Source: a virus. From it: 28,452 bases of DNA. The notes beneath the pieces were generated by a model. It was not told where the DNA came from, made no database searches, and saw only the letters and a program-made list of their open reading frames with translations. Both the position numbers and the translations under genes were made by a program. This document shows, one piece after another, positions 4,168-23,771 of the stretch. The stretch's first letter is position 1. The number at the start of each line of letters is the position of its first letter. The stretch spans positions 1 to 28,452 of the IMG/VR virus record IMGVR_UViG_3300020192_000065, one strand, 5' to 3'.

Positions 4168-4571
4168 AGCCTGCACTGGTAACGTTTACCAGTGGTGCGC
4201 CCTTGCTGTGCGCCTGGGTCTCACGTCATCTACCGCTGACAGCGCACCGCACCGCGCTGTCAGCCTACCAGATATGCCAGGTGCCCGACCGCAATACCAG
4301 CGCGCCGGAGCTGTGGCTCGATGTCGTTCTCTGCTGCGCCAGCGCGCCAGCGCTCGTGGTGCTGATCACCTCGCACACCATCTACACGCCTGTGATCCGC
4401 CTCATGGCGCATGTCTCGCCCGCTACGGTCGTCATTCGCCCGGTCATGACCAAGCCGCGCACCGCCGACGACGCTGCCTGGCAGTGGTCAGGCGAATGGC
4501 AGCAGCTCGTCATGGATGCCAATTACCAGCGCACTTATCGAGTCACCTGGACGCCGGAGCCATCAGCATGA
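4164..4571 (+). CDS. Unknown protein, 135 residues
   Basis: The ATG at 4164 overlaps the stop of the regulator gene. The palindrome at 4174-4194 lies within the first ten codons and is read as ALVTFTSG. The protein has two hydrophobic stretches (about residues 50-80), too polar at the edges to call membrane helices with confidence. I do not recognise a family. Placing the palindrome in the 5' coding region means that a hairpin in the mRNA or a bound protein could affect expression of this gene and of those after it. The next gene starts in its stop codon. Confidence 0.65.
   Translation: MKPALVTFTSGAPLLCAWVSRHLPLTAHRTALSAYQICQVPDRNTSAPELWLDVVLCCASAPALVVLITSHTIYTPVIRLMAHVSPATVVIRPVMTKPRTADDAAWQWSGEWQQLVMDANYQRTYRVTWTPEPSA
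4174..4194. promoter_or_regulatory. Dispersed palindrome copy 1 (perfect, 9-bp arms)
   Basis: Arms CACTGGTAA and TTACCAGTG surround a CGT centre. This is the most perfect of five copies. It starts 6 bp after the stop of the winged-helix regulator gene and lies inside the first codons of the following gene. The same core recurs at 10201, 14713, 18176 and 23753. It may be an operator, or it may act as an RNA hairpin with a three-base loop. Confidence 0.75.
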
Positions 4572-4981
4572 CCAGGCAAGCCAGCAGTACGCCGCCGCAG
4601 CACCTCGCACTGGGGCTTGGCGATGACAACAGATCACAGCGCATCGTCCAGATCGCCACTGTCATTCGCGGCATGATGGATTGCATCGACAATGGCAGCT
4701 TCGACATCGACCGCCTGCGCGCGCGCACCATTCCAGCAGCCCGCGCCGAGTGCCAGCGCACCCATGCTGCGTTCGTAGCCTGTACCAGCTTGTCCGATCT
4801 GGGCACGCTCTGGTTCGATGCAAAGCAGGCGCGTGAGACGCTCGCGTATCATGAGACCGAGCTGCTCTACGCCGAAATCCGCGACCGCCTCCAAGCTGAA
4901 GCCCGCACCAAGCGCGATGCTATGCACCGCGCCATGTTCGGCGCCAACGTGCCCATACCACTGGATGCGGAAGCCTTGTGA
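4568..4981 (+). CDS. Unknown helical protein, 137 residues
   Basis: The ATG at 4568 overlaps the preceding stop by two bases. The product appears mostly helical: a central segment (IVQIATVIRGMMDCIDNG) and a longer charged C-terminal helix (AKQARETLAYHETELLYAEIRDRLQAEARTKRDAM, seen in pieces). There is no membrane segment or metal-binding motif. I do not recognise a family. The tail of the gene overlaps the GTG start of the next one. It is part of a run of small accessory genes between the replication and partition genes. Confidence 0.65.
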   Translation: MTRQASSTPPQHLALGLGDDNRSQRIVQIATVIRGMMDCIDNGSFDIDRLRARTIPAARAECQRTHAAFVACTSLSDLGTLWFDAKQARETLAYHETELLYAEIRDRLQAEARTKRDAMHRAMFGANVPIPLDAEAL

Positions 4982-5193
4982 CCGAGACGATGCGCCTCAC
5001 TTTCGTGATAACCCAGACGCGCCGCGACCTTTACCGCGCGCATCTCGACGACGACGCGACCATCGTCGCGCACGGCGAAACGCCCATGCTCGCCATTCGC
5101 GCCCTTGCCGACCATCTCGACGACGAAGATGCCCGCCTCGACGCGCAGCCTCGTCCATCGTCCGTTTCTCGTACCCAGGAGCCATCAGCATGA
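4978..5193 (+). CDS. Small acidic protein of unknown function, 71 residues
   Basis: The GTG at 4978 overlaps the preceding stop (GTGA); an ATG at 4990 is an alternative start. The product begins with a beta-rich segment (MRLTFVITQTRRDLYRAHL) and continues with DDDATIVAHGETPMLAIRALADHLDDED. This resembles small HicB-like or other alpha/beta folds often found in phages, but I see no decisive motif. It ends in the start of the ParM-like gene. The reading frame is supported mainly by the coupling on both sides. Confidence 0.6.
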   Translation: MTETMRLTFVITQTRRDLYRAHLDDDATIVAHGETPMLAIRALADHLDDEDARLDAQPRPSSVSRTQEPSA

Positions 5194-6245
5194 CCCGCAA
5201 ACAAGTCCGTTCCGGATCACCGCCGCCGACGACGCTCGTTGTCGGTCTCGACATGGGGTACGGCTATACCAAAGCCGTCACCGAAAACTACAGCGTCTCT
5301 TTTCCGTCCGTCATCGGGCACGCCCGCACCATCCGCTTTAACGCAAAGGAGATCGCTGAGAAGTATCCCGGCATGTCCCTCACCGATGGCGTTGATGCGT
5401 TATTCATCGGCGAGTTGGCGCTCAGTCAGCTCAATACCAATGCACTGCGCCGCCTCCGCAGCCGCGCAACCGCGCATGACAACGAGATGGCGACCAATTT
5501 CCGCCGCCGTCTCATGTTCGCTGCCCTGGGACGCATTGGCGAACACCTGCGCATCGAGGACACGGTGCACGTCATAATCTCGACAGGTCTCCCTGTAGAT
5601 CACATGGCTGACGCCGCAAGCCTTAAGTCACTGCTGATCGGTCCCCACAGCGTCATGACCGACCGTGCCGCGTTCGTCGCGCACGTCAGCGATGTGCGCA
5701 TCATGCCGCAGCCCTACGGCAGTATCTACAGCGAGATGCTGCTGCCCGACGGCGCGCTCAACGCGCGCTACACCCACACCCGGACGGGCGTCATCGACAT
5801 CGGTACCTACACGGTCGATCTGACCGTCGACGACGACGGTGAATTCGTTGCCGGATCTTCCGGCTCGCTCGAGGCAGGAATTCACATGGCAGAGGACGCA
5901 ATCAGTGAGGGCATCAACAATCGTCATCGTGCCCGCGCCACCCAGCGCCAGATCGACGAGGTGCTGCGCACGGGATATCTGATCGCATACGGACAGCGCG
6001 AGGACTGGCGGAGGGAGGTCTCCAACGCGCTGAAACCGCTGCAGGATGCGGTCATCGCGCTTGCCACAGAGCGGTGGGACTCCGGTCTCAATCTCGACAG
6101 GGTGCAGGTAACGGGCGGTGGCGCACCGCTTGTCTTTGACGCCCTGCGCGCGATCTATCCGCAGGCTGTCATGCTCCCTGACCCGCACCTCGCCAATGCG
6201 CGCGGCTATCTCCGCTACGCCCGCTTCAAAGCACGAAGCGGCTAG
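5190..6245 (+). CDS. ParM-like actin homologue (plasmid/phage segregation)
   Basis: The 351-residue protein has the ordered motifs of actin-like ATPases: phosphate 1 as VVGLDMGYGYTKAV (about residues 17-30), phosphate 2 as GVIDIGTYTVDLTV (about 199-212) and the adenosine motif VTGGGAPLV (about 306-314). ParM-type proteins polymerise into filaments that push apart plasmid copies joined through ParR bound at a centromere. The length fits ParM/Alp proteins. The next gene encodes a ribbon-helix-helix-like protein, and three 11-bp tandem repeats lie between them, so a complete type II partition locus is likely. The ATG at 5190 overlaps the preceding stop. A phage cytoskeletal actin with another task is the alternative. 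Confidence 0.82.
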   Translation: MTRKQVRSGSPPPTTLVVGLDMGYGYTKAVTENYSVSFPSVIGHARTIRFNAKEIAEKYPGMSLTDGVDALFIGELALSQLNTNALRRLRSRATAHDNEMATNFRRRLMFAALGRIGEHLRIEDTVHVIISTGLPVDHMADAASLKSLLIGPHSVMTDRAAFVAHVSDVRIMPQPYGSIYSEMLLPDGALNARYTHTRTGVIDIGTYTVDLTVDDDGEFVAGSSGSLEAGIHMAEDAISEGINNRHRARATQRQIDEVLRTGYLIAYGQREDWRREVSNALKPLQDAVIALATERWDSGLNLDRVQVTGGGAPLVFDALRAIYPQAVMLPDPHLANARGYLRYARFKARSG

Positions 6246-6259
6246 GGAGTCCGTTCGGA

Positions 6260-6292
6260 GGGTGTATACAGGATGTATACAGGGTGTATACA
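6260..6292 (+). repeat. Three 11-bp tandem repeats, candidate parC centromere/operator
   Basis: Three head-to-tail 11-bp units, GGGTGTATACA, GGATGTATACA and GGGTGTATACA, differ at one base. Each contains the self-complementary octamer TGTATACA. They lie between the ParM-like and ParR-like genes. ParR proteins of the R1 type bind 11-bp iterons as ribbon-helix-helix dimers, so unit length and position fit a centromere that may also control the downstream gene. Three units are fewer than the ten of R1 parC. Confidence 0.7.
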
Positions 6293-6311
6293 TCCCTCGA
6301 CGGGTCATCTG

Positions 6312-6692
6312 ATGAAGAAATCGCGTTACACCATCACTGCGCAGCTTGTAGCCGAAAAAGACGAGGACCTGATCATGTGGCTCACATCGCTTTCGACCGG
6401 ACAGCGCAATCAGACTATCAAGATGCTGCTTCGACGCGCCCTTTCCTTGCCACAGCCATCTGCCCCGGTCGAGGTCGATCCCACCGATTTCAATGCCATC
6501 GTTGATCAGCTCACCGTCCAGCAGCGCCGCATTGCCGATCTCAGCGCCGAGGTCGAGCAAATGCGCCAGCACATCGCCGCTGGCGTCGTCATACCATCGC
6601 CCGGCGCAGAGCCACCCATGTCCGGCGCAGTGCACGCCGACGATCCAACACTCGCCCGCCGTGCTGCGCGTCTCAATCGCCAGAACTGGTAA
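6312..6692 (+). CDS. ParR-like DNA-binding adaptor (ribbon-helix-helix)
   Basis: The first 45 residues read KKSRYTITAQLV followed by DEDLIMWLTSLSTGQRNQTI, a beta strand and two helices in ribbon-helix-helix order, as in ParR proteins. A short coiled-coil-like helix (IVDQLTVQQRRIADLSAEVEQM, given in pieces) and a flexible tail follow. In type II partition, the N terminus binds the centromere repeats and the C terminus caps ParM filaments. I chose ATG 6312; ATG 6273 is also in frame and has GGAGGG ten bases upstream, but it would start inside the repeats. The stop codon (6690-6692) forms part of a half copy of the dispersed palindrome, ACTGGTAA. Confidence 0.68.
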   Translation: MKKSRYTITAQLVAEKDEDLIMWLTSLSTGQRNQTIKMLLRRALSLPQPSAPVEVDPTDFNAIVDQLTVQQRRIADLSAEVEQMRQHIAAGVVIPSPGAEPPMSGAVHADDPTLARRAARLNRQNW

Positions 6693-6712
6693 TCCACAAG
6701 GAGTTTGTCTTT

Positions 6713-6943
6713 ATGCACACCATGACCATTCATGACTACGCCTCACTCAACCCCGCCGAGCGCCAGCACGCGATCGCTTTCTATGACAGCTTTCGTATTG
6801 AGTCGTTCTACAGACGCGGGCTTATCGGTCGTCCAACTTACGTCGTCACGCTCGACCTGGGCGAGGGCGGCGCTTACCTCTACATGCGCGCCGACACCTT
6901 GCTCGCCATCCGCACCGACTCCATTCACGCAGGGGAGGGCTGA
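6713..6943 (+). CDS. Small protein of unknown function, 76 residues
   Basis: AAGGAG at 6698 sits 9 bases before the ATG. A half palindrome (ACTGGTAA, 6685-6692) ends just upstream of it. The product starts with a helical region (LNPAERQHAIAFYDSF) and ends with beta strands (PTYVVTLDLGEGGAYLYM). I do not recognise a family. The gene is followed after two bases by the DUF488 gene, so the two are probably co-transcribed. Confidence 0.65.
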   Translation: MHTMTIHDYASLNPAERQHAIAFYDSFRIESFYRRGLIGRPTYVVTLDLGEGGAYLYMRADTLLAIRTDSIHAGEG

Positions 6944-6945
6944 TC

Positions 6946-7389
6946 ATGCCGACGATCTACACGCTCGGTTACACCGCGTGTAACCCGGACGACCTCCGTT
7001 CCTTCGCCCATGCGCGCTCGACGGTCGTCATCGATACGCGCATGGCACCCCGTTCTCGCGCGCCGCAGTGGGACGGCGACGCGCTCAAACAGCTGCTCGG
7101 TGTTAGCAACTACCAGCACGAGCGCTGGCTCGGCAATCGCAACTACAAGTCCGTCAAATCAGCGATCGCGATCGTCAACCTCAAGGGCGGCTTGGTCGGT
7201 CCCAAAGCACTGCTGGACGTGGGCATGTCCGTCCTGCTGCTGTGCGCCTGCGTCGAGCATCGCACATGCCACCGCTTTATCATCGCTGAAGCCCTTGCCG
7301 ACGCGACTGGACATTCCATCGAGCATCTCAAGCCGTCAGACCTGACGCGCCCGCTTCAGCTCTCATTTTTAGAGGACACCTATGCCTAA
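6946..7389 (+). CDS. DUF488 family protein
   Basis: The 147-residue protein shows the DUF488 pattern in order: IYTLGYTACNPDDLRSF at the start, VVIDTRMAPRSRAPQWDGDALKQLL in pieces, then the RWLGNRNYK segment, and LLLCACVEHRTCHRFIIA near residue 100-117 with the conserved cysteine-histidine-arginine trio. The biochemical role of DUF488 is not established; conserved cysteines suggest a redox, metal or nucleotide-linked activity. It is a known passenger gene in bacteria and phages. It starts two bases after the previous gene and overlaps the following zinc-binding gene. Confidence 0.85.
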   Translation: MPTIYTLGYTACNPDDLRSFAHARSTVVIDTRMAPRSRAPQWDGDALKQLLGVSNYQHERWLGNRNYKSVKSAIAIVNLKGGLVGPKALLDVGMSVLLLCACVEHRTCHRFIIAEALADATGHSIEHLKPSDLTRPLQLSFLEDTYA

Positions 7390-7795
7390 AAAATCAGCTT
7401 TTGCCGATTCACCTATGCGCACCTGTTCTGTGTGCAACCGCGAATTACCGCAGACCAAAGAGTACTTTTATCCCCAACGAACGGGGTATCGGTCTCACTG
7501 CATCTCCTGCCACCTCAAAAAAGCCGCAGCGCGAAAGGGTAAGATGAGTCCCACCGCCGCACGCGCGCACATCGACGCCCCCATCTCACCACCGCCTGCC
7601 GCCTCCAGCAGCACGACGGACAGCGGTGTACGCTGGCTGCTGATCGATGAGGCGCGAGGCAAGATTCAGCAGTGCACACTCGTGGTTGATCACGAGATGT
7701 CGCTCGCAAAATTCGCCAACCCGTCCATTGCGGGCGCGCTCACCGCTGACTTTCGCGCGCGCGGTTATCGTATTGTCCGGATCAGGAAGGGATGA
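7382..7795 (+). CDS. Zinc-binding protein with N-terminal CxxC...CxxC
   Basis: Residues 15-43 contain CSVCNRELP and, 25 residues on, HCISC, giving two CxxC pairs that would bind one zinc ion, as in small phage zinc-finger proteins and HNH nuclease N termini. There is no HNH histidine-asparagine-histidine core, so a nuclease call is not supported. After a proline/serine-rich linker (about residues 60-80) comes a second small domain (GVRWLLIDEARGKIQQCTLVV) ending in a basic tail. The start overlaps the end of the DUF488 gene, with GAGG upstream. A role in nucleic-acid binding is likely but unproved. Confidence 0.7.
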   Translation: MPKKSAFADSPMRTCSVCNRELPQTKEYFYPQRTGYRSHCISCHLKKAAARKGKMSPTAARAHIDAPISPPPAASSSTTDSGVRWLLIDEARGKIQQCTLVVDHEMSLAKFANPSIAGALTADFRARGYRIVRIRKG

Positions 7796-7932
7796 CCCAC
7801 CGTCGCTGGATCGTACTGAACATCACCGTCGCCGTGCTGCTGTTCGCCCTGTTCATGGCGTCCTTGCACGCACCGCCGCTGGCATTCTACGCCAACTGTA
7901 AACCCGTGCCAGTCGAGGCGATCGCACCGTGA
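7792..7932 (+). CDS. Small single-pass membrane protein, 46 residues
   Basis: A short gene starts at ATG 7792, in an ATGA overlap with the preceding stop and 0-1 bases after a purine run (AGGAAGGG, 7784-7791), which itself is the likely ribosome site. The product begins MTHRR, has one hydrophobic helix (WIVLNITVAVLLFALFMASL, residues 6-25), and ends with a short tail. The positive N terminus suggests the tail is outside the cytoplasm. The close spacing of the ribosome site is not ideal. Small membrane proteins of this kind occur in superinfection exclusion and lysis control, but nothing here shows which. Confidence 0.6.
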   Translation: MTHRRWIVLNITVAVLLFALFMASLHAPPLAFYANCKPVPVEAIAP

Positions 7933-7988
7933 TCGACACCCGTGCCCTTTGCTGATTTTCGACACTTAGAGAAACCGGACGCCACCAC

Positions 7989-8393
7989 ATGAACCTGCTT
8001 GCTACCTACCGCGCTGCCTGTCGCGCCGCCCGCCTCGACCCAGAAGTCGGACCGACCACCCTCTACCAATGCGTGGTCGCCACATCCGAAGCCCGCAAAC
8101 AGCGCCCGGTGCGACGTGAAAGCAACGAGCGGGTTTGGTGGCTGTGCGACTGGTCGCCATACAGCCACGCCGCCGACCCCCGCGACCGTCCGCGTCGTGC
8201 CAGCAGCGCGGTCGAGCAGCAGGCACTTGTCAATGTCGCCGCCGCCGCGCTGCGCCACCGCCTGTGCGATGCCCCGCCGCGCCCCCATGCCCACCTTCGC
8301 CCACTGCGTGAGATATTTACGCAGCGCGGTGAATCCTCTCCCCACACCGCGCCCCATCATCGACATTCTGCATCCAGGTTAAGTGATGGATAA
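7989..8393 (+). CDS. Uncertain protein, 134 residues
   Basis: The ATG at 7989 opens the longest frame here. The first 70 residues (YRAACRAARLDPEV, then ESNERVWWLCDWSPYS) look like real protein, while the last 40 are rich in histidine, proline and arginine and look less natural. There is no clear ribosome site. The same frame continues past the TAA at 8391 into the next entry, so this could be the first part of a gene broken by a stop codon. I do not recognise a family. Confidence 0.4.
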   Translation: MNLLATYRAACRAARLDPEVGPTTLYQCVVATSEARKQRPVRRESNERVWWLCDWSPYSHAADPRDRPRRASSAVEQQALVNVAAAALRHRLCDAPPRPHAHLRPLREIFTQRGESSPHTAPHHRHSASRLSDG

Positions 8394-8408
8394 TCCCCTA
8401 ACCCCATC

Positions 8409-9964: not shown

Positions 9965-9978
9965 CTCCCGACATGCTG

Positions 9979-9994
9979 AGTGGATGTGCGACAT
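9979..9994 (+). repeat. 16-bp direct repeat, right copy flanking the C5 methyltransferase
   Basis: This is the second identical copy of AGTGGATGTGCGACAT. It opens a very short frame (ATG 9984 to TGA 10028, 14 codons) that resembles the alternative start of the methyltransferase (MCD...). An AAAGGAG at 10011 follows without a substantial gene behind it. This suggests the 5' end of a second or lost gene. Confidence 0.7.
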
Positions 9995-10083
9995 GTTGAT
10001 CGATTTACTCAAAGGAGAAAGCTCGTGACGACGGCGCGCATAGTACACGAGCAACGATGATCTGCGCGAACCTTGAACAGACG

Positions 10084-10113
10084 TTCGAGAGCGTGGGTTT
10101 TTCGTGATATGAT
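10084..10113 (+). promoter_or_regulatory. Candidate sigma-70-type promoter with extended -10
   Basis: TTCGAG (10084-10089) is a weak -35 and TATGAT (10108-10113) a good -10, 18 bases apart. A TG one base before the -10 box makes it an extended -10. Transcription would start near 10120, in the 276-base gap after the methyltransferase, and run into the terminator at 10159. Confidence 0.55.
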
Positions 10114-10119
10114 CGAATC

Positions 10120-10191
10120 GGGCGACTATTTTTAATGCGCGAAGAAAGAGCCGCGCACAAGGCAGAGGACTGATAGCCCTCTGCCTTTTTG
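10120..10191 (+). ncRNA. Candidate small RNA of about 70 nt with two hairpins
   Basis: The promoter-like sequence at 10084-10113 and the intrinsic terminator ending near 10191 define a transcript of about 70 nt. It would have a U-rich single-stranded 5' part (CTATTTTTAA), a first hairpin with stem TGCGCG/CGCGCA (10136-10141 and 10152-10157), and, one base later, the terminator hairpin. There is no reliable coding frame; a 12-codon frame from ATG 10135 has no ribosome site and ends inside the terminator loop. The layout is that of a stand-alone regulatory RNA. I recognise no known RNA family. A leader of the downstream packaging genes with built-in attenuation is the main alternative. Confidence 0.5.
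10159..10191 (+). terminator. Rho-independent terminator
   Basis: AAGGCAGAGG (10159-10168) pairs perfectly with CCTCTGCCTT (10178-10187) around a 9-base loop and is followed by a run of T. It is the clearest intrinsic terminator in the window and separates the early/accessory block from the packaging genes. Confidence 0.9.
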
Positions 10192-10200
10192 TCTGCCTCT

Positions 10201-10219
10201 ACTGGAAACATTTACCAGT
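10201..10219. promoter_or_regulatory. Dispersed palindrome copy 2 (one mismatch)
   Basis: ACTGGAAA and TTACCAGT surround CAT, one mismatch from the perfect core. It lies between the terminator and the start of the metallophosphoesterase gene (10241), the expected place for an operator or upstream control element of the late genes. Confidence 0.7.
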
Positions 10220-10240
10220 TGGCATAGGCAAAGGTGCCCG

Positions 10241-11506: not shown

Positions 11507-11508
11507 TC

Positions 11509-13432: not shown

Positions 13433-13441
13433 GGGGTGTGT

Positions 13442-15664
13442 GTGGGCGCAATTGAGCGATTGGGTGCGGCGTGGGCGGCGCTGCGCGGCGATGACGCCCC
13501 GGTGCGGCGGATGGAGAGCAAAAACGCATCGATATTCGCGTTTCCTGAGTGGATGCGGACACGGGCGCGCTGGAATATTGATGATAAATACCCGGCATAT
13601 GTCGATGAAGCGTACCGCCTGAACAGCCTGGTATACGCGCCGATCCGATACAAGGCGCGGTCGCTGGCGTCGGTACCCCTGGTCGCAGCGACGGGCGAAC
13701 AGGATAATCCTGAGTGGCTGCCGGACAATCACCCGCTCGCGCGGCTGGTGGCACGCCCCAACAGAAACCAGACATGGCGGGCGTTCACGGAGCAGCGGAA
13801 GACATATCTGGAACTGGCTGGCAATGCGTATGTGTACGCCGAGCGCGACAAAAAAGGGACGCCGACGGCGCTGCACAACCTGCGCCCTGATCGAGTACGC
13901 ATCCTGCCGACCGCGAACGGCATCCAGGGATTTTATTACATTCTACCGGGGCAAGCGGCAGGCGACGGCGTGCCGATGCTGGTCGAAGATGTGGTGCACA
14001 CGAAGTATCCCAATCCGCTCGATGATCTTGAGGGAATGGGGTACGGCATTCCGCCGATCCTGTCGGCAGCGCGAGACATCGACACCGATAACAGCGTGAC
14101 GGCGTTCATCAAGCTGTTGTTCGATCGGGGCGCGATGCCTATGGGGATGCTGCGCTACGATGTGCCGCTGACGGAGGAGGACGCCGACCTCGCCAAGCGG
14201 CGGTTCATGGACAGGTACGGCAGCTATGAGCGCTGGATTGAGCCGTTGGTGGTCGATCAAGGCGGCGGCTATGAGCGCATCGGCATGACCTTCGACGAAC
14301 TAGGCTTCGACGTGCTGGACGCGCGCAACGAGGCGCGCATCCTGTCTGTGTTTGGTGTGCCACCGATCCTGCTCGGCACACGGTACGGCATTGCGCACGG
14401 CACCTACTCGAATTATGAGCAGGCGCGGACGCAATTCTGGCAGGACGTGCTGGTCGCGGAGCTGCGCATGTTCGAGGATGACGATCAGCGACTCTTGAAC
14501 AGCGCCGACACGTTCGTTATGTATGACCTGTCCGTTGTGCCCGCGCTGCAAGCCGACACGCCCGCGCTCGTCCAGGCGGCGCGCACGCTGTGGGAGATGG
14601 GCGTCCCGGCGAACAAGGCGTTTGTCGCGGTCGGATTGGCGATCGAGAATATCGAGGGTGGCGATACGGCATACGTGCCGACGGGGATGACGGTGGTCGG
14701 TGCGCCCAGCGAACCGGTAAGCGTTACCAGCGGGACGGATAACACCGAAGACGATCGCCCTGCCCCATCGGCGGGCGATCTCCCAAAAGCACGAGCCCTG
14801 GGCGAAAAAGAGCGAGTCGCTAAGGGGTGGAGCATTGAAACAAAGGCGCAGCACTGGAAAGCGCTCGACGACATCGCGCTGGCGCACGAGGATGGTTTCC
14901 GGGCGATGGCGGTGGCGCAATTCGAGCGTGATCGGCGGGCGGTGATGGTAATCGTCGGGCAAGCCGAAGAAAAAACCAGGGTGAGGAAAGCGACGATCGA
15001 GTGGGAGCCAGTACTGCCCGACATTTTGAAGGTACTAGAAACACACGGCGAGTCATGGCGTGAAGCGTTCATCCCGCTGGTGCGGGGTGTGGTCAAAGAT
15101 ACCAGTGAATACTGGGCGACGGCTGCGGGGTTGGCGTTCGACGTGCGCCGACTGGAGGATCAGGCTTTCTTCATCGACTACGCGATGGACTTCTGGAGCC
15201 AGGTTGGGCAAACGACACGCGACGAGGTAGGCGGGATCGTCCAACGCGGCATCAGGGACGGCTGGTCAATCCCGGATATGCAAAAGTCGCTGCGTGAAAC
15301 ATTTGAACAGTGGATCGTAGGCAGCGGCGATCCCGATGTGCTGCGCTTCGCTTCGGACAGGGTAACGCCGTACCGGACGGAAATGATCGCCCGCACCGAG
15401 TCTACGAAGGCGACGGCGTGGGGTGCGCAGCAGGTGTATCGGGATGCAGGCGTGAAGCGCAAAGAATGGCTGGCAACAAAGGACGACCGAACGCGACCGA
15501 GCCATGTCACTGCCAACGGGCAGGTGCGCGACATCGACGATGCGTTCGAGGTCGGCGGTTACAAGATGATGCAGCCTGGTGACAGCACCCAGGGCGCGCC
15601 TACGGACGAGATCGTCATGTGCAGGTGTACCGTGCTGCCGATCATACCAAAAGAGAGAGAATGA
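13442..15664 (+). CDS. Portal protein fused to a MuF-like head morphogenesis domain
   Basis: Residues 1-410 form an HK97-type portal (SLVYAPIRYKARSLASVPL, HPLARLV, AGNAYVYAERD, VLDARNEARILSVFGVPP in pieces). A linker rich in polar residues follows near 420-460. The last 290 residues are helical and end in the Phage_Mu_F signature: KEWLATKDDRTRPSHV, NGQVRDIDDAF and VMCRCTVLPI. The portal is the dodecameric DNA gate; MuF-like proteins are minor head proteins, sometimes injected. Many phages encode them separately, here they share one 740-residue chain. GTG 13442 has GGGGG five bases upstream; GTG 13436 is the alternative. The fourth-type palindrome copy lies at the linker. Confidence 0.9.
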   Translation: MGAIERLGAAWAALRGDDAPVRRMESKNASIFAFPEWMRTRARWNIDDKYPAYVDEAYRLNSLVYAPIRYKARSLASVPLVAATGEQDNPEWLPDNHPLARLVARPNRNQTWRAFTEQRKTYLELAGNAYVYAERDKKGTPTALHNLRPDRVRILPTANGIQGFYYILPGQAAGDGVPMLVEDVVHTKYPNPLDDLEGMGYGIPPILSAARDIDTDNSVTAFIKLLFDRGAMPMGMLRYDVPLTEEDADLAKRRFMDRYGSYERWIEPLVVDQGGGYERIGMTFDELGFDVLDARNEARILSVFGVPPILLGTRYGIAHGTYSNYEQARTQFWQDVLVAELRMFEDDDQRLLNSADTFVMYDLSVVPALQADTPALVQAARTLWEMGVPANKAFVAVGLAIENIEGGDTAYVPTGMTVVGAPSEPVSVTSGTDNTEDDRPAPSAGDLPKARALGEKERVAKGWSIETKAQHWKALDDIALAHEDGFRAMAVAQFERDRRAVMVIVGQAEEKTRVRKATIEWEPVLPDILKVLETHGESWREAFIPLVRGVVKDTSEYWATAAGLAFDVRRLEDQAFFIDYAMDFWSQVGQTTRDEVGGIVQRGIRDGWSIPDMQKSLRETFEQWIVGSGDPDVLRFASDRVTPYRTEMIARTESTKATAWGAQQVYRDAGVKRKEWLATKDDRTRPSHVTANGQVRDIDDAFEVGGYKMMQPGDSTQGAPTDEIVMCRCTVLPIIPKERE
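14713..14731. promoter_or_regulatory. Dispersed palindrome copy 3 (imperfect, inside portal-MuF gene)
   Basis: ACCGGTAA and TTACCAGC surround GCG. Each arm differs by one base from the consensus. It codes for PVSVTSG at the linker between portal and MuF domains and is read in the same frame as copy 1. The position suggests the joint was once an intergenic boundary. Confidence 0.6.
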
Positions 15665-16812: not shown

Positions 16813-18092
16813 ACGTGAAAACGGCATGGGAGCAAGTAGCAGAGGCGAAGCGACTGCTGGAACAGGCGCGCGACCTGCTGACAAAAGATGTGGTCAGCGA
16901 CACTGACCGCAGCGACGCGGCGGTACTGCGAGAGCAGGCGACGAAGCTGCGCAGCGACGCGGAAGCGCTAGCGCTGATCGAGCGTGAGGCGAAGGCAATG
17001 CCCAAGCCGATCGAGGGCAAGATGGCACGTGCAGACGTCGCCGATGACTTCGAGACATTCGGCGAATTCATCGTGGCGGCGCGCGAAGCGAAGGCGACCG
17101 GGCGAAGCGACCCGCGTCTGAAGTACATGGCGCGTGATGCCGACGAGGTCGGCGCTAGTCAGCGAAAAGCCCTGAGCGGCACGGCTGGGGCGTCCGGCGG
17201 CTTTCTGATGCCGGAACGCTGGATCGCGGAGCTGAACAGCGTGATGCTGGAGACGAGCACGGTGCTGCCGCGTGTGACCACGATCCCGATGTCTACGCGC
17301 ACGGTCTCACTGCCTGTCGTGGACTATGCGCGCGCGCTGCCGGAAGGCGAACCGCGTCAATTCGGTGGGGTGCAGGCGTACTACCAGGACGAAGGCGTGG
17401 AGTCGGTCGAAAGCGAGCCGCGTTTCCGCGAACACACGCTGACGGCGCACGAGCTGGCGGTGTATACCGAAGCCAACAACAGCCTGCTGGCGGACTCGGC
17501 GGTCTCGCTGGAGGCATTCCTGGCGAGCGGGATGGGGATGCAGGGCGCGCTGATGTGGAAAATCGAACACAAAATCTTTAACGGCAACGGCGTCGGGCAG
17601 CCGCTCGGTATCCTGAACGCGCCCGCGACGATCGCGGTGCCACGCGAGCTGACAGGCGAGGTGGATTATCTAGACCTCGCCCGCATGGACGAAAAAACCC
17701 TGCCATCCGGAAAACTGGCGTGGTTCGCGTCGATCAGTATGAAGACGCGCCTGCGCACGCTGAAAGACGATGCAAATCAGTTGATCTGGGCATCGGCGGG
17801 GAGCGGCTTGCCCGCGACGCTGCTGGGCTATCCGATCTACTTCACGGAACACCTGCCCCGGATCGGCGGTCGCGGTGACATCGTGCTGGCGGACATGAGT
17901 TACTACCTGTTCGGCGATCGTCAGGCGGCAACGCTGGATGTGAGCACCGAAGCGAACTTCCGGCGCAATCGGACGGGCTATCGGATGATCCATCGTCATG
18001 ATGGCTCGTCATGGATGAACGCGCCGATCACGCTGTCGGACACGGTGACACAGGTGTCGCCGTTCGTGGTGCTGGACTCGGCACAGAGCTAA
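16809..18092 (+). CDS. Major capsid protein, HK97 fold
   Basis: The 427-residue protein has a coiled-coil N-terminal delta domain (about residues 1-110, ending near KALSGTAGASGGFLMPE) that would be removed by the protease, then the HK97 capsid body: TRTVSLPVVDY, EANNSLLADSAVSLEAFL, the NGNGVGQPLGIL loop and the C-terminal GYRMIHRHDG block. Hundreds of copies form the icosahedral shell. The GTG start overlaps the protease stop. It follows the standard portal-protease-capsid order. The gene is followed by an array of hairpins, perhaps to set apart its high expression. Confidence 0.95.
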   Translation: MNVKTAWEQVAEAKRLLEQARDLLTKDVVSDTDRSDAAVLREQATKLRSDAEALALIEREAKAMPKPIEGKMARADVADDFETFGEFIVAAREAKATGRSDPRLKYMARDADEVGASQRKALSGTAGASGGFLMPERWIAELNSVMLETSTVLPRVTTIPMSTRTVSLPVVDYARALPEGEPRQFGGVQAYYQDEGVESVESEPRFREHTLTAHELAVYTEANNSLLADSAVSLEAFLASGMGMQGALMWKIEHKIFNGNGVGQPLGILNAPATIAVPRELTGEVDYLDLARMDEKTLPSGKLAWFASISMKTRLRTLKDDANQLIWASAGSGLPATLLGYPIYFTEHLPRIGGRGDIVLADMSYYLFGDRQAATLDVSTEANFRRNRTGYRMIHRHDGSSWMNAPITLSDTVTQVSPFVVLDSAQS

Positions 18093-18107
18093 TCTCCTAA
18101 GATGGTC

Positions 18108-18151
18108 GGAATATCACTGCGGACGGCGATCTCAGGTCGCAGTGATGTTCC
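18108..18151 (+). other. Long hairpin 1 after the capsid gene
   Basis: GGAATATCACTGCG (18108-18121) pairs with CGCAGTGATGTTCC (18138-18151), 14 pairs with one G-U, around a 16-base loop. It begins 15 bases after the capsid stop and is too regular to be chance. With the next elements it may stabilise the capsid mRNA 3' end or reduce transcription. Confidence 0.75.
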
Positions 18152-18153
18152 GT

Positions 18154-18179
18154 CAGTGGGCGCAGCAGTGCGCCCACTG
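18154..18179 (+). other. Long hairpin 2 after the capsid gene
   Basis: CAGTGGGCGCA (18154-18164) pairs perfectly with TGCGCCCACTG (18169-18179) around a 4-base loop, GCAG. Its 3' arm overlaps the first bases of the dispersed palindrome at 18176, so the two structures exclude each other. Confidence 0.75.
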
Positions 18180-18194
18180 GTAAGGCTTACCAGT
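18176..18194. promoter_or_regulatory. Dispersed palindrome copy 4 (perfect)
   Basis: ACTGGTAA and TTACCAGT surround GGC with no mismatch. It lies in the only sizeable gap of the head genes, between the capsid gene and the gene at 18231. Its left arm is shared with hairpin 2, which makes alternative RNA folds possible. Confidence 0.75.
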
Positions 18195-18196
18195 TA

Positions 18197-18220
18197 CCGC
18201 CGAGAGGCGGCTTTGTATTT
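18197..18220 (+). terminator. Weak intrinsic terminator or attenuator
   Basis: CCGCC and GGCGG close a GAGA tetraloop and are followed by CTTTGTATTT. The stem is short (5 pairs) and the T run is broken, so termination is probably partial, allowing read-through from the capsid gene to the next gene at 18231. Confidence 0.5.
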
Positions 18221-18230
18221 GGAGGGCAGT

Positions 18231-18671
18231 ATGACCAGTCTTTTGCACGCCGATTTTGCAGAGAACTACGTCCTGATCGACAAGATGGTGATCTCGGCAG
18301 CGACGAGCGAACAGAACACCGACTACGTGTCGATCAAGGACTATCTGCGCATTGTGGTGATCGTCCATGCGCTGATCGTGACGACCACGCTCGACATCGA
18401 CATCGAAGCTGCGACCAGCAGCGCCGGGGCGAACTCCTACAACGTCAAGCGGGCTACGCAACTCGTCGGAGCCGACGACAACGACGTGGTGATCTTCGAC
18501 ATTCGACCGGACGAGATGAGCAATCCAGCTGGCGGGGCTGCCGACGATGGCTATCAGTATCTCAACATCGAACTCATCCCAAGTGGCGCCGCGACCGTGA
18601 GCGTGCTGATGCTGGGCGTGCCTCGTAATCGTGGTGCGGTCGGCACATCGTGGGATCAGGCTGTCAGCTAA
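18231..18671 (+). CDS. Probable virion protein (capsid-associated), 146 residues
   Basis: ATG 18231 has a strong ribosome site, GGAGG at 18221. The product appears beta-rich: LRIVVIVHALIVTTTLDIDIEAA in pieces, VIFDIRPDEMS and YQYLNIELIPSGAATVSVLMLGVPRNRG. The location after the capsid gene, the strong start and a sequence style seen in small phage structural proteins suggest a head decoration or stabilising protein. No motif proves it. It has no membrane segment or cysteine. The capsid-downstream hairpins and palindrome lie in its leader and may control it. Confidence 0.7.
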   Translation: MTSLLHADFAENYVLIDKMVISAATSEQNTDYVSIKDYLRIVVIVHALIVTTTLDIDIEAATSSAGANSYNVKRATQLVGADDNDVVIFDIRPDEMSNPAGGAADDGYQYLNIELIPSGAATVSVLMLGVPRNRGAVGTSWDQAVS

Positions 18672-18733
18672 TCAGTCGTAATCATCAATTCAGGGGGTGC
18701 CGTCGGCATCCCCTACCCGATTGGAGGCAAGGT

Positions 18734-19417
18734 GTGAGCATGGTCGTGCAGGTGCTGCGTTCATTCCAGCACGAGCAGCGTGGTGCGCTGCTGATGGTGC
18801 ATCCCGGTGATCTGATCGAGGTCGGACGCGGGGTAGGACTGCGTTTGATCAGCGAGGGGGCGGCACGGGGACTGGCGCCGATCACGCTGACAGACGCCGA
18901 AGCGTCCAACGTGTGCGTAATGGTGCCGACCCGCGTGTTAGGGGACAGGGTACGCGCGATGATGCCTGCGGCATGGATCGACGTGTCCGACTCGGTCGAG
19001 CGCCTGGTCGAACTGCTGATCGATGAAGGGGACGCCGATCAGGGTGTCGATCGGGTGATCTGGTGGGATGGCAGCACGCCACTGACCGCCAGCATGATCC
19101 GCGACGGGATGGCGGCGCTGGATACGTGGTCGGCTGCGGTGCCGTTGTGTGACTACAAAATACTGGCGTGCGATGTGGGCACAGTGGAAGAGCGTAAGGT
19201 GACAGCAGGGGAGATCGGCGATCTGCGCGTGCCGATCTACGAAACAGGACTGATGTTCCTGCGCCGCAACAGCGAGAGCGAGGCACTGATCAGGCAGTGG
19301 GCAACGTCGATGTCTCTGGGTGGTGATGCCCGTCTGGCATGGCTGCGGGCGATGTGGCATGTCAAGCCACTGCTGCTGCCGCTTCCGGCATCCTGGTCGG
19401 GGGCGAGGGCGAGGTGA
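18734..19417 (+). CDS. GT-A-like protein with an N-terminal small phage domain
   Basis: Residues 1-55 (VQVLRSFQHEQRG, then HPGDLIEVGRGVGLRLISEGAARGL) resemble the small beta domain of phage head proteins. The rest shares the C-terminal pattern of the two GT-A proteins downstream: YETGLMFLRRN, an ALIRQW helix, and LLLPLPASW, like GGVIGFRRS, TAWLREW and LTLGSEWN. No clear DxD metal motif is visible, though CDVGT occupies the expected region. It may be a degenerate or unusual glycosyltransferase joined to a virion-binding part. GTG 18734 has GGAGG six bases upstream; ATG 18740 is an alternative. It overlaps the next gene (GTGA). The glycosyltransferase relation is inferred from pattern only. Confidence 0.55.
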   Translation: MSMVVQVLRSFQHEQRGALLMVHPGDLIEVGRGVGLRLISEGAARGLAPITLTDAEASNVCVMVPTRVLGDRVRAMMPAAWIDVSDSVERLVELLIDEGDADQGVDRVIWWDGSTPLTASMIRDGMAALDTWSAAVPLCDYKILACDVGTVEERKVTAGEIGDLRVPIYETGLMFLRRNSESEALIRQWATSMSLGGDARLAWLRAMWHVKPLLLPLPASWSGARAR

Positions 19418-20052
19418 ACGCGAGCGAGCGCGGCGTGGTGTATATCGCATTGGGAGCGACGTGGCGGTCACATGTGGCGCTGAGTATCGGCACTTTGAAG
19501 GCACAAAATCCATACCTTCAGGTCTGGATAATGACCGACGGCGAGGTCAAGGGAGCGGATGAGCGACTCCAACTCCCCTATCCCTATCCGCAAAAGATAA
19601 CCACAGATCGCCAGTTATCAAGATGGGCGAAGACAGCGCTTGCAGATGCCAACACACCGGATCGGTGCATGTACCTTGACGCCGACACGCAGGTGTGCGG
19701 CTCACTGGAGGCATATTTCGCGCCGCTCGATTCGGGCTTTGACATGGTGATCACGGCGAGCATCAACCAGGGCGCTCATATGCTGCGCCACGCGACGCCG
19801 GACGAGCGGCTGGTGACGCTGAACGAGGTCGGCACAGGCGCGGTGCAATTGCAAGCTGGCGCGTTCTCCTGGGCGCGGAATGAACGCACGAGAACGCTAT
19901 TCGCCACATGGCGACAGCAATGGTGGCGATGGGCGGACGTGGATCAAGGAGCGCTGATGCGAGCGATCCGGGTGAGCGGCGTGCGGCTGTGGCTGCTCGG
20001 TCGAGACTTTAATGGCGGGTCGGTGGTCAAGCACAGGAGCGCGGGCGGATGA
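19414..20052 (+). CDS. GT-A glycosyltransferase with DxD motif
   Basis: The 212-residue protein starts GVVYIALGATWRSHV and has LSRWAKTALADANTPDRCMYLDADTQVCGSLE in pieces; YLDADTQV (about residues 86-93) is the metal and nucleotide-sugar-binding DxD of GT-A enzymes. A later GAFSWARN and WADVDQGALMRAI follow the GT8-like pattern. It should transfer a sugar from a nucleotide donor. Its acceptor is unknown; the placement between head and tail genes suggests a virion protein or phage DNA modification. The GTG start overlaps the previous stop. Longer starts upstream would lie inside the previous gene. Confidence 0.82.
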   Translation: MNASERGVVYIALGATWRSHVALSIGTLKAQNPYLQVWIMTDGEVKGADERLQLPYPYPQKITTDRQLSRWAKTALADANTPDRCMYLDADTQVCGSLEAYFAPLDSGFDMVITASINQGAHMLRHATPDERLVTLNEVGTGAVQLQAGAFSWARNERTRTLFATWRQQWWRWADVDQGALMRAIRVSGVRLWLLGRDFNGGSVVKHRSAGG

Positions 20053-20927
20053 CGCAACAAATACGTATTGTGTGTGAACTGCCATCCGAGCATGTGCTGG
20101 GACGGATGGCGCGATCGCTCGCAGATCATGCAGGGTGGGAACTCAGTGCGAAGGCATCGGCGTTCGCGGATATAAATTATTTCATACCGTACCTGTCATT
20201 CGAGCCGACCGAGGCGGCGGCGGCAGCATACTTCACCCATTGCGAGACAAACGACAAGGGCAAAACGCGGCGCTGGCAGTCGGTCGATAAAATGGTCACG
20301 GGGCGCATTGTAACGGCGTCACGCTATAAGGCGCAACTGCTACACCCGACTGCGGTGGTGCGCCCGCCGATCGACATGGATAAGTTTCGCCCGGCGCTGC
20401 GTGTGTCGCGTAGTGGCAAGCCGCTGATCGGCGTGGGCGGCATGGTCTACAAAACGGGGCGGAAGGGGGAGCATCTGGTCGAGATGCTGGCGCAGTCGGC
20501 GCTCGGTCGAGAGATCAACCTGTGCGCCAGCGGGCGCGGGTGGAGCGTACAGACTCAGAAATACGACTGGGGCGAGATGCAGGCGTTTTATCAGTCGCTC
20601 GACGTGTTCCTGTGTACCTCGCTGATCGAGGGCGTGCCGATGCCGCCGCTGGAGGCGCTGGCGTGCGGGGTGCCGATCGTGGTGCCGATCGGGGTAGGAC
20701 TACTGGACGATCTCGCGGATGCGATCGGCATTTACCGGTATCAGGCTGGGGACTATGACGGCATGGTGCGGGCACTGCAGGACGCGATCGGCATGGTGAC
20801 TGCGCGCCTCGGACGTGATGCGAAACGCCTTATCAGCGACCAGTGCCGGAGCTACGTCGTCAAAAACTACACAGCAGAGAACTGGGCTGCGGATCACGTC
20901 GCGGCGTTCGGGGAGTGGTTCCCATGA
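20049..20927 (+). CDS. GT-B glycosyltransferase (GT4 type)
   Basis: The 292-residue protein shows the C-terminal Rossmann half of GT4 enzymes: VGGMVYKTGRKGEHLVEML, DVFLCTSLIEGVPMPPLEAL with the Glu pair that binds the donor sugar nucleotide (about residues 185-205), then ACGVPIVV. The N-terminal half is short and ends in the PPIDMDKFRP boundary. It probably transfers a sugar with retention of configuration. It overlaps the genes on both sides by four bases (ATGA), so the island is one translation unit. A third kind of fold in the same island points to a multi-step glycan. Confidence 0.88.
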   Translation: MTQQIRIVCELPSEHVLGRMARSLADHAGWELSAKASAFADINYFIPYLSFEPTEAAAAAYFTHCETNDKGKTRRWQSVDKMVTGRIVTASRYKAQLLHPTAVVRPPIDMDKFRPALRVSRSGKPLIGVGGMVYKTGRKGEHLVEMLAQSALGREINLCASGRGWSVQTQKYDWGEMQAFYQSLDVFLCTSLIEGVPMPPLEALACGVPIVVPIGVGLLDDLADAIGIYRYQAGDYDGMVRALQDAIGMVTARLGRDAKRLISDQCRSYVVKNYTAENWAADHVAAFGEWFP

Positions 20928-21661
20928 TCGGCATGTACACGGTAGCATATGGGGCGCCCGCGCGGGTGTGCGCGGAACGACTGATCACGAGCTGGCGGCG
21001 GCATATGCCGTCGGTGCCGATGGTGATCGCCACCGACGATGCCGACATGTTCGAGGACAAGGATTGCACGGCGCTCGATCTGCGGCGCCCAGACATCGGC
21101 GCACGCGAGCCGAAGCTGCGCATGTTCGACGCGACACCTGAAGACTGGGACTGTGTGCTGTATCTGGACGCCGACATCGAGATACTGGAGTCGGTCGTCT
21201 ACCTGTTCGAGGCACTGGCGGCGGGATGGGATATGGTACTGACGCGCAATCCGGGCAAGTACCACACCACACGCGAAATGATACGCCCGAACAACCACGC
21301 AGAAGTCGAGGAGACGTGGGAGGTAATGGGCAGCAACGATCGGCTGCAATGGAACGGCGGGGTAATCGGGTTTCGGCGGTCTCCCGCGATGGCGGACGTG
21401 TTCACGGCGTGGCTGCGCGAGTGGCAGCGTAACGCCCAACAGGATCAGCCTGCGCTGCACAGGGCGCTGTGGCAGCATCCATGCAGGGTACTGACATTAG
21501 GCAGTGAGTGGAATCGCTCGACACGGTACGACGATGGAACCGCCCGCGAGATCATCCGGCATCACCAGATGGAAGCGCGGGAGATGGTGGGCAAGCTGGA
21601 GGAAGGTGTGCGTGGGGACAGCGCCGAAGCGTGGGCGCGGCTGCGCGGGAGGCGAAAATAA
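20924..21661 (+). CDS. GT-A glycosyltransferase with DxD motif
   Basis: The 245-residue protein has VLYLDADIEILES (about residues 77-89) as DxD motif, KLRMFDATPEDWD before it, and LQWNGGVIGFRRS with DQPALHRAL after it, as in GT8-like and related GT-A families. It is similar in plan to the gene at 19414, but the sequences are not close by eye. The sugar and acceptor are unknown. ATG 20924 overlaps the GT-B stop; earlier in-frame starts lie inside that gene. The charged C-terminal tail (REMVGKLEEGVRGDSAEAW) is helical. Confidence 0.83.
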   Translation: MIGMYTVAYGAPARVCAERLITSWRRHMPSVPMVIATDDADMFEDKDCTALDLRRPDIGAREPKLRMFDATPEDWDCVLYLDADIEILESVVYLFEALAAGWDMVLTRNPGKYHTTREMIRPNNHAEVEETWEVMGSNDRLQWNGGVIGFRRSPAMADVFTAWLREWQRNAQQDQPALHRALWQHPCRVLTLGSEWNRSTRYDDGTAREIIRHHQMEAREMVGKLEEGVRGDSAEAWARLRGRRK

Positions 21662-21792
21662 TGCTGGCGCAGCTGCGTGTAGCCCTGATCGTGAAGAACC
21701 GACACGGCAGCTTCGAGCGCGATCGGCGTCAGGTCGGTTGTTTCAGCTACGCCTGGACACGCGAGATGATCACGAAGGAGATGGGCATATGA
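21661..21792 (+). CDS. Small protein of unknown function, 43 residues
   Basis: ATG 21661 overlaps the TAA of the glycosyltransferase gene (TAATG) and has GGGAGG eight bases upstream, a better start signal than most large genes here. Its stop overlaps the ATG of the methyltransferase at 21789 (ATGA). The peptide starts LAQLRVALIVKN and is basic in the middle. I recognise no family. It may be a coupling peptide or the remnant of another enzyme's N terminus (AQLRVALIVKNR resembles the first strand of a glycosyltransferase). Confidence 0.5.
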   Translation: MLAQLRVALIVKNRHGSFERDRRQVGCFSYAWTREMITKEMGI

Positions 21793-23081
21793 ATGTCGGC
21801 GGAAGTACGGACAGCATCTTCTGCGAGTTCGAGAAGACGCACCCGGAGATAGGTGGGGTGCTAAGCGACATCGATGCGCGGATCGCCCGGAAACCCCGGC
21901 GTGAGGTCGAGCGGTATCAGGCAGCGGCGCTGTATGCGCTGGCAAAAACATACAACGGCAAGCCGATTTTGGAGATCGGGACAGCGGTCGGCTACAGCGC
22001 GGCGGTGATCGCGGCTGCGGCACCGTCGGCGGCGATCGTGACGCTGAATCCGAACGAGGCTGAAGCGGCGATTGCGCGGGTGAACCTGGCGCCCTGTCCC
22101 AATGTAACGGTGATGACGATCGCGTCACTGGACTATCTTGGCGTGCGACACCCTGTCAGCGATGTACCTGACGGCGCGCCGGAGCAGGATTTCAGCTTCA
22201 TCTTCGTGGACGGAGATCATGCGCGCGTGCGTTTGGATTTCGCTTACTGGGACAGGCTGGCGCCGGGAGGGATGATCGTCTTCCACGATTATTCGCCAGC
22301 AGGGACATGGCGCGCCTGTCCGCCAGTGTACGAGGCGTGTCAGGACTTCGCGGCGTGGCTCGGTCGGGCGGACGTGCTGATCGTGGACAATCAGGGTGTC
22401 GGGATGATCGGCTGGATCAAGCGCATGGGCGATCCGATGTGGCAGTTTCGTCTCGATGAGCCGTCGCCAGTACTGCTTAATGCAGCATCAGCCGCCAGTG
22501 TGCAGCCCGCGAATCGGCTGGCGAAATTATGGCGGTTATGTCTATCTGCACACGAAGTACCGGGCGCGATTGTCAGCCTGGGCGCGGGCATGGGCGGCGC
22601 TGCGGCGCTGATCGAGCGCGCGGTCGGCGGCGAGGATCGCCAGGTGTGGCTATTCGATACCTGGGGGAATGCGGAACAACCCGGCGAACGCGACGGCGCA
22701 AAAGCGCACGCGCGGTATGCCGACAGGCTCAAGGCTGGACGACACGATGACGTGGCGGACGCGATAAGGGTGATGCAGGACTGGGGCATCGGCTCGGCGC
22801 ATTATGTGACGGGGCATATCTCTGACACGGTGCAGGTGCGTTCGGAAGACATCGGGGTGATTGCTGTGCTGCACATCGATACGGATTCGTATGCACCGAC
22901 GCTGCTGTCGCTGCTGTCGCTGTACGAGCATGTGGCGCAGGGCGGATTGATCATCTGCGACGATTACGGGCATTGGCAGGGGGCGCGCCTGGCAGTGGAC
23001 GAATTCCGCGCCAAGATGCAGATTGTGTCTCCGCTGATGGCGCTGGATAAGACCGCGCACTGGTGGCGCAAGGATGGCTGA
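21789..23081 (+). CDS. Double methyltransferase: class I SAM domain plus TylF-like O-methyltransferase
   Basis: The 430-residue protein joins two methyltransferase domains. The first (about residues 1-215) has ILEIGTAVGYSAAVI as S-adenosylmethionine site and FIFVDGDHARVRLDF with GGMIVFHDYSP, like the Methyltransf_24 family. The second (about 250-430) has IVSLGAGMGGAAALIE, VWLFDTWG, HIDTDSYAPTLLSLL and ICDDYGHWQGARLAVDEF, the TylF/macrocin O-methyltransferase pattern including the acidic metal ligands. TylF enzymes methylate sugar hydroxyls. With four neighbouring glycosyltransferase-like genes, it probably caps a glycan. AAGGAG at 21776 marks the ATG at 21789. The stop overlaps the head-tail connector gene. 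Confidence 0.85.
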   Translation: MNVGGSTDSIFCEFEKTHPEIGGVLSDIDARIARKPRREVERYQAAALYALAKTYNGKPILEIGTAVGYSAAVIAAAAPSAAIVTLNPNEAEAAIARVNLAPCPNVTVMTIASLDYLGVRHPVSDVPDGAPEQDFSFIFVDGDHARVRLDFAYWDRLAPGGMIVFHDYSPAGTWRACPPVYEACQDFAAWLGRADVLIVDNQGVGMIGWIKRMGDPMWQFRLDEPSPVLLNAASAASVQPANRLAKLWRLCLSAHEVPGAIVSLGAGMGGAAALIERAVGGEDRQVWLFDTWGNAEQPGERDGAKAHARYADRLKAGRHDDVADAIRVMQDWGIGSAHYVTGHISDTVQVRSEDIGVIAVLHIDTDSYAPTLLSLLSLYEHVAQGGLIICDDYGHWQGARLAVDEFRAKMQIVSPLMALDKTAHWWRKDG

Positions 23082-23745
23082 TTACACAACGGTGCAGAAG
23101 GTGCGTGCAACGATCGGCAGCCAGGTATCGAGTGCCGATGACGATGTGATCACGCGCTTGATCAGCGCGGTGAGTCGCCAGATCGATCGCTATTGCAATC
23201 GCCTGGACGGATTTGAAGCGTCAGCCACCGCGACGGCGCGCGTATTTCCGGGTCGGGGCGAGACGACGCTGTGGATCGACGAGTGTGCGGCGGTGACGCT
23301 GGTGGAGGGGAGAGAAAGCGTGTCGTCGGCGTGGACGGGGTGGACTGCGGGCGACTGGATACCCTTCAGCGGCGACGACATGTCGCCCAACTTCAACAAG
23401 ACGCCGTATCACGGTCTGATGGTGATGCCGAGCGGGACACACAGCGTGTTTCCGCACGGGGCGTATTCGTCGATGTGGGTATTCGATACAGGCAGGCGGC
23501 AGCGCGGGATTGTGATGACGCTGCCGACGGTGCAGGTGACAGCGCGATGGGGCTATGCGCTGTCAGTGCCGGACGACGTTGAGAATGCGTGCATCATCCA
23601 GACTGCACGGATGTACAAGCGGGGACAGAGCGCCTACGCCGACACGCTGGCGACCTCTGATTTTGGCACCATGCAATATCGCAAACTCGATCCGGAGGTC
23701 GAGGCGATCCTAACAGGCGGGCGGTATATCCGTCCACGAGTCTAG
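23074..23745 (+). CDS. Head-tail connector protein (gp6-like)
   Basis: The 223-residue protein begins with a helical region of the phage connector type (YTTVQKVRATIG, VITRLISAVSRQIDRYCNR), continues with beta-rich segments (TLWIDECAAVTLVEG, IVMTLPTVQVTARWGY) and ends in PDDVENACIIQTARMYKRGQ, as in HK97 gp6-like and SPP1 gp15-like adaptors. It forms the ring under the portal on which the tail docks. It starts inside the end of the methyltransferase gene and resumes the normal head-tail gene order after the sugar-enzyme island. Confidence 0.85.
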   Translation: MADYTTVQKVRATIGSQVSSADDDVITRLISAVSRQIDRYCNRLDGFEASATATARVFPGRGETTLWIDECAAVTLVEGRESVSSAWTGWTAGDWIPFSGDDMSPNFNKTPYHGLMVMPSGTHSVFPHGAYSSMWVFDTGRRQRGIVMTLPTVQVTARWGYALSVPDDVENACIIQTARMYKRGQSAYADTLATSDFGTMQYRKLDPEVEAILTGGRYIRPRV

Positions 23746-23752
23746 AAGATGC

Positions 23753-23771
23753 ACTGGTAAGGATTACCAGT
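23753..23771. promoter_or_regulatory. Dispersed palindrome copy 5 (perfect)
   Basis: ACTGGTAA and TTACCAGT surround GGA. It fills the gap between the connector gene and the membrane coiled-coil gene, 16 bases before the ATG at 23788 and next to its ribosome site, so a bound protein or an RNA hairpin could limit translation or transcription of the tail genes. Confidence 0.75.

Follow-up and report, generated by a model that had tools for sequence, protein, structure and literature searches.

The viral DNA analysed here, comprising the 28,452 bases of the entire IMG/VR record IMGVR_UViG_3300020192_000065 (the window; the record itself may be a fragment), carries a dispersed family of 19-letter palindromes, ACTGGTAA-NNN-TTACCAGT, in five copies with zero to two changes in the arms. 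We propose, with a probability of roughly 60%, that these palindromes are dispersed DNA operators for one phage-encoded dimeric regulator that controls entry into gene blocks. A preliminary description of this DNA had already suggested a phage-wide circuit of this kind, and it emerged as the best-supported reading; that a protein binds the sites, that it acts by repression or as a roadblock, and which protein it is, we infer from the features of the sites laid out below.

All five copies listed in the preliminary description were located, three of them exact, one with a single change and one with two (Table 1). Four copies (sites 1, 2, 4 and 5) are strong, and their centres (CGT, CAT, GGC and GGA) differ while the arms are kept, as had been claimed; at site 1 an extra outer C-G pair extends the palindrome to 4174-4194. 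When the window was searched blindly for dispersed exact palindromes, ACTGGTAA-NNN-TTACCAGT was the sole family with three copies, and no such family of three appeared in any of 40 shuffled sequences. Allowing up to three mismatches, dinucleotide shuffles yielded a mean of 0.02 copies and a maximum of 1, versus the five observed, in line with the earlier estimate that random expectation lies far below one. The palindrome set is thus real and non-random, a chance origin being ruled out by these shuffle tests. Similarity between the copies is confined to the palindrome (as direct repeats, the family spans only 22 nt), and since the flanks are unrelated, the copies are not recent duplicates of a longer repeat. 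A half copy, ACTGGTAA, reported at 6685 was also confirmed, although about one stray 8-mer of this sort is expected by chance alone.

The strong copies are non-random in position as well. In a position test, the distance to a start codon was at most 60 bp for all four (0.65 expected, p=0.0012), and intergenic placement held for three of them (0.25 expected, p=0.0008). The centres of sites 2, 4 and 5 fall in intergenic gaps, 26-46 bp 5' of a start codon. Site 1 overlaps the first codons of the next gene, g7, if that gene begins with ATG 4164, a codon overlapping the stop of the preceding gene, g6, and becomes intergenic if g7 starts at TTG 4203. Site 3 lies deep inside a single 742-codon open reading frame (ORF) for a portal-MuF fusion (13436-15664). 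Because one PHROG portal profile (phrog_2662) alone spans residues 35-735 of this ORF, nearly its full length, site 3 is not at a gene border, and it may be a weak or chance site. The proposal that each copy marks a switch in function was hence borne out for four of the five copies and failed for the one at 14713, inside the portal-MuF gene. The intergenic gap at 26227-26306, which follows the tail tube gene, is a change of module that has a terminator and no palindrome.

Table 1. Palindrome sites, the candidate regulator gene and neighbouring control features in the window.
Feature	Position	Strand	Sequence	Description
Site 1	4175-4193		ACTGGTAACGTTTACCAGT	no arm changes; 8 nt past the stop of the LexA-like gene g6
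Site 2	10201-10219		ACTGGAAACATTTACCAGT	one uncompensated change; 21 nt from site end to ATG 10241
Site 3	14713-14731		ACCGGTAAGCGTTACCAGC	two uncompensated changes; within the portal-MuF ORF; weak, doubtful
Site 4	18176-18194		ACTGGTAAGGCTTACCAGT	no arm changes; gap between major capsid gene and g24; 36 nt from site end to ATG 18231
Site 5	23753-23771		ACTGGTAAGGATTACCAGT	no arm changes; gap between head-tail adaptor gene and g31; 16 nt from site end to ATG 23788
g6	3658-4167	+		169 aa; N-terminal LexA-type winged helix (residues 5-68)
LexA/SOS-type box	10075-10086		GAACAGACGTTC	the window's only exact GAAC-N4-GTTC, Chloroflexota type
Promoter-like sequence	10085-10113	+	TCGAGA-17-TATGAT	only + strand match reaching the scan threshold
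Leader ORF	from ATG 10136			12 codons
Intrinsic terminator (predicted)	~10160-10191	+	GGCAGAGG-N9-CCTCTGCC, then TTTTTG	between the promoter and site 2
Two strong RNA hairpins	18113-18178	+		just 5' of site 4; the second absorbs the first palindrome bases into its own stem

We further compared the pattern with viral and prokaryotic collections. The exact 16-base pattern occurred in 31 stretches among 2.9 million viral contigs, in a single copy each, and in 62 stretches across 84,980 species (257 Gb), versus about 60 expected for 16 fixed bases. No similar phage-like dispersed set was found in the prokaryote species scanned, from which the true host may be missing. A looser 14-base scan of the viral contigs likewise returned no related contig or set among the matches listed; a variant, GCTGGTAA...TTACCAGC, is present in two copies in contigs L240 and L287, both among these matches, in DNA of 35-36% GC that encodes no homologue of a window protein. 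As no other viral contig or prokaryote species in the collections scanned shares the set, a host-wide element is unlikely, and since the pattern is private to the phage, its regulator is more likely to be the phage's own than the host's.

Several apparent links to other genomes were rejected. One viral contig (L014) combines the motif with a weak capsid-gene match; it reads as a generic phage with one copy, which we regard as a coincidence. In the Anaerolineae genome RH21, one exact copy and a TerL match sit on different contigs. The only genome with several dispersed copies, five of them exact, was a Pirellulales metagenome-assembled genome (bin.141; stretches L116 and L166). It has its own genome-dispersed family of 19-bp palindromes, ACTGTTAACSGTTAACAGT and close variants, of which these copies seem to be part. 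Using the capsid protein, g6 and DnaB as queries, we found no useful relatives among the viral contigs.

The gene just before site 1, g6, encodes the best candidate binder of the palindromes, an assignment drawn from its sequence to which we give somewhat less than an even chance. Its Pfam match (PF01726, 3.7e-8) is above the cut-off, and among the window proteins tested it is the only one that matched a DNA-binding family of transcription regulators. Structures of LexA ranked among its top fold matches (Z 7.3-7.5), level with those of other winged-helix families. A single-sequence AlphaFold model reproduced the winged helix with fair confidence, while the C-terminal half, which has a weak second helix-turn-helix (HTH)-like match, was modelled mostly below a pLDDT (predicted local distance difference test) of 50. 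No match to the LexA peptidase (S24, its Ser-Lys pair or the cleavage site) was found in the 169 residues; therefore g6 would escape the RecA inactivation that LexA undergoes. Compared with LexA DNA-binding domains of Chloroflexota, the only phylum compared, g6 is 41-61% identical, and a GAAC-N4-GTTC box lies upstream of 12 of 15 Chloroflexota lexA genes; Chloroflexota as the host phylum is only a lead. The recognition helix of g6, SSTSVVVYHL, has V at its seventh residue, where all 15 Chloroflexota LexA proteins have S, N, D or H, and a changed target for g6 is therefore plausible.

Operators at the four strong sites would sit at the entries to blocks: at the end of the replication and regulator block, before packaging, after the capsid gene, and at the neck and tail genes. 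Protein bound there would prevent RNA polymerase from initiating at, or continuing into, the block that follows, so that late genes would be kept silent in a prophage state or timed during infection. Sites 4 and 5 lie further along the same operon without recognisable promoters, which would suit a block to elongation. A more specific scenario, which we consider possible but rather unlikely, is that the phage, possibly a plasmid-like prophage, took the DNA-binding half of its host's LexA, dropped the peptidase and retargeted the domain to ACTGGTAA-NNN-TTACCAGT, thus holding each lytic block at its entry, while the SOS box at 10075 lets the host LexA hold the late promoter. If this were true, a LexA derivative and LexA itself would form a two-layer lysis switch.

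Several points weigh against dispersed operators of this kind. Sigma-70-type promoters were not enriched next to the sites (the best score was 8/12 at each, matched by 38% of background stretches), and control of initiation is therefore unsupported; the palindrome as a promoter element was itself ruled out, as there was no common spacing and scores were at background. At most one or two recognisable window proteins were found encoded in any other contig, leaving the conservation of the sites without relatives for comparison. The authors who described similar sites in Cluster O mycobacteriophages judged regulation of transcription unlikely (PMC4351075). Finally, the target of g6 may be the GAAC-N4-GTTC box and not the palindromes, or these may be bound by a different protein of unknown function; the ParR-like protein encoded in the window was rejected as their binder, having its own repeat, TGTATACA.

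Among the alternatives, we gave most weight to RNA hairpins in the late mRNA, in which an 8-bp stem and 3-nt loop near the ribosome-binding site would serve in processing, stabilisation or antitermination. The sites do lie just 5' of Shine-Dalgarno motifs. When 39-nt pieces of sites 1, 2, 4 and 5 were folded in isolation, they were somewhat more stable than shuffled versions (z -1.6 to -3.0), and the pairing probability in context reached 0.93 for sites 1 and 5 and 0.65 for site 2. It fell, however, to 0.01 at site 4, where a much stronger 5' hairpin captures part of the arm and outcompetes the palindrome, and to 0.00 at site 3. Furthermore, all three arm changes (the one at site 2 and both at site 3) break pairing and none is compensated, and a kept arm sequence with a free loop is the opposite of most protein-RNA hairpins. 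Neither a stem at every copy nor compensated changes were found at the five sites examined, and the antitermination or processing hairpins put forward in the preliminary description thus appear unlikely. Because the arms are kept, the centres are free, the changes are uncompensated and the hairpin is competed at site 4, recognition of DNA is favoured: a two-fold symmetric protein reading the double strand explains the data better than an RNA element.

Slightly less probable still is a host DNA-binding protein (a nucleoid, segregation or SOS factor) borrowed by the phage. Host factors are known to use dispersed palindromes, such as matS, SlmA sites and LexA boxes, and palindromic LexA boxes occur in the likely host phylum. 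Yet exact copies did not form such a set in any species of the prokaryote scan, subject to the limit given above, the Pirellulales genome with its several copies has the ACTGTTAACSGTTAACAGT family of its own, and the Chloroflexota lexA boxes have a different sequence. We rate as improbable, to about the same degree, two further explanations. One holds that the palindromes are short boundary sequences that aid the exchange of modules between phages by recombination. Their placement at functional changes would agree with this, as would deletions between two repeat copies described for Cluster O phages, where nonetheless few repeats, if any, took part in the observed rearrangements (PMC4351075). 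The shared length is however only 19 bp with no flanking homology, strict symmetry around a free centre would be unnecessary, and the presumed linker was shared with no other phage in the exact scan or, in the looser scan, among the matches listed. The other holds that the sites act at the DNA level, in replication, packaging or partition, rather than in expression. The authors of the Cluster O study lean towards a function distinct from control of initiation (PMC4351075), and the gene set of the phage includes an actin-like ParM and a ParR-like protein; against this, the ParR-like gene has its own triplet of TGTATACA at 11-bp spacing, and the palindromes track gene starts, which a DNA-level role would not need.

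Returning to the proposed operators, the surroundings of sites 2 and 4 contain further control features. Site 2 lies in a 276-bp gap (9965-10240) that holds, in order, a LexA-type box, a promoter-like match, a terminator and site 2, after which the packaging block starts. The gap is likely the control region of the late operon; by analogy with lambda-like late control, it may be read as a late promoter under SOS control whose leader is terminated. Around site 4, the region 3' of the major capsid gene (18093-18230) folds strongly (z -5.7): a pair of long hairpins precedes a weak terminator-like one at 18197. This region may modulate expression 3' of the capsid gene.

All assigned genes of the window are on the + strand; part of them, including terminase and capsid, were named from matches and others, including DnaB, by sequence reading. 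The window opens with a Sak4-like recombinase, a DnaD-like loader, the DnaB helicase and g6, followed by unknown genes with the ParM-like actin and the ParR-like protein, and then by DNA methylases and nuclease-like genes. Next come a second methylase and terminase, then the portal-MuF fusion, protease and capsid, and the 3' part contains sugar enzymes, the head-tail adaptor, and neck and tail genes. The TGTATACA triplet lies at 6263-6292, in the stretch 6263-6295 between the ParM-like actin gene (5190-6245) and the ParR-like gene. As a putative centromere-like array or autoregulatory operator, it may point to a plasmid-like prophage. Glycosyltransferase-like and methyltransferase-like genes, named by reading and not by profile, form a block at 18650-23081, between the capsid and the head-tail adaptor, and Cluster O phages likewise have such enzymes amid their head genes.

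Dispersed palindromes were also seen elsewhere. In a survey of 174 viral stretches of at least 5 kb, five had at least three dispersed exact palindromes, of which at least one (L300) looks like a regular repeat array. An uncultured viral contig (L071) has a palindrome of its own, TTGAGTTTAAACTCAA, at 1626, 3580, 8085 and 12974 (three exact, one with a single change), and two others (L226 and L310) have three copies each of TATCGTTAACGATA, possibly another such system. If g6 binds the window's sites, this would provide a function for a class of dispersed palindromes that is present, with other sequences, in other viral contigs.

With regard to known systems, symmetric copies within a one-strand late operon had been thought unusual, a view contradicted by phage phiC31 and the Cluster O phages, which share the architecture and the placement. 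In phiC31, the conserved inverted repeats (CIRs) serve as operators for a known repressor, the large c protein, and the phiC31 record annotates gene c as a repressor of lytic genes. The same blind search recovered the CIR family, and the 41 kb of phiC31 hold 16 CIR-like palindromes (at most two changes), 15 of them intergenic and eight within 60 bp of a start. Five CIRs lie in gaps of the structural operon (before TerL and the portal gene, behind the capsid and tape measure genes, and at 17011), and those of the late operon stand 27-88 bp 5' of start codons. The window's palindromes are similarly mostly intergenic, 5' of starts and in gaps of a single-strand structural operon, at distances within a similar range. 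Unlike them, the CIR, TACTCACGTGAGTA, has no free centre, and the best match to the c protein in the window was a 46-aa piece (E=0.008) that we take as chance; a homologous gene could lie outside the record. LexA-family proteins, too, bind palindromes and g6 has a LexA-type DNA-binding domain, whereas the window's palindrome does not match the GAAC-N4-GTTC SOS box and g6 has no peptidase. The sites of the late activators P2 Ogr and Mu C are dyads found at several one-strand late units, at a fixed distance 5' of late promoters; the window resembles them in having dyad sites among one-strand late genes and differs in that no promoter was seen at its sites.

Cluster A stoperators (L5, TipsytheTRex) are many genome-wide repressor sites in short intergenic gaps, for which a block to elongation has been proposed; they are 13-bp asymmetric, oriented sites bound by a monomer (PMC9283540), in contrast to the symmetric sites of the window, which lack such an orientation. 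The Cluster A repressor's HTH and second DNA-binding domain loosely resemble the two putative HTHs of g6 (PMC9283540). A comparable layout is that of the Cluster O mycobacteriophages (Corndog, Firecracker), whose TGTTCGG-NNN-CCGAACA palindrome has 34 copies in Corndog, about two-thirds of them between genes or near gene starts and one-third inside genes, mostly away from promoters; it is absent from the host genomes named and was described in 2015 without a known function (PMC4351075). From the first 50 kb of Firecracker we recovered this palindrome de novo, in 13 copies. Both families are dispersed and combine invariant inverted arms with a free 3-bp centre, one strong copy in the window having a single arm change. 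They differ in that the arms of the window, ACTGGTAA/TTACCAGT, are 8 bp and not 7, that there are five copies in 28 kb and not tens, and that Cluster O phages have neither a partition system nor known lysogeny. The window is therefore a new example of a known layout and not a new kind of thing: it shows a Cluster O-like architecture in a different lineage, at low copy number, for the most part at the borders of blocks, and with one obvious candidate binder.

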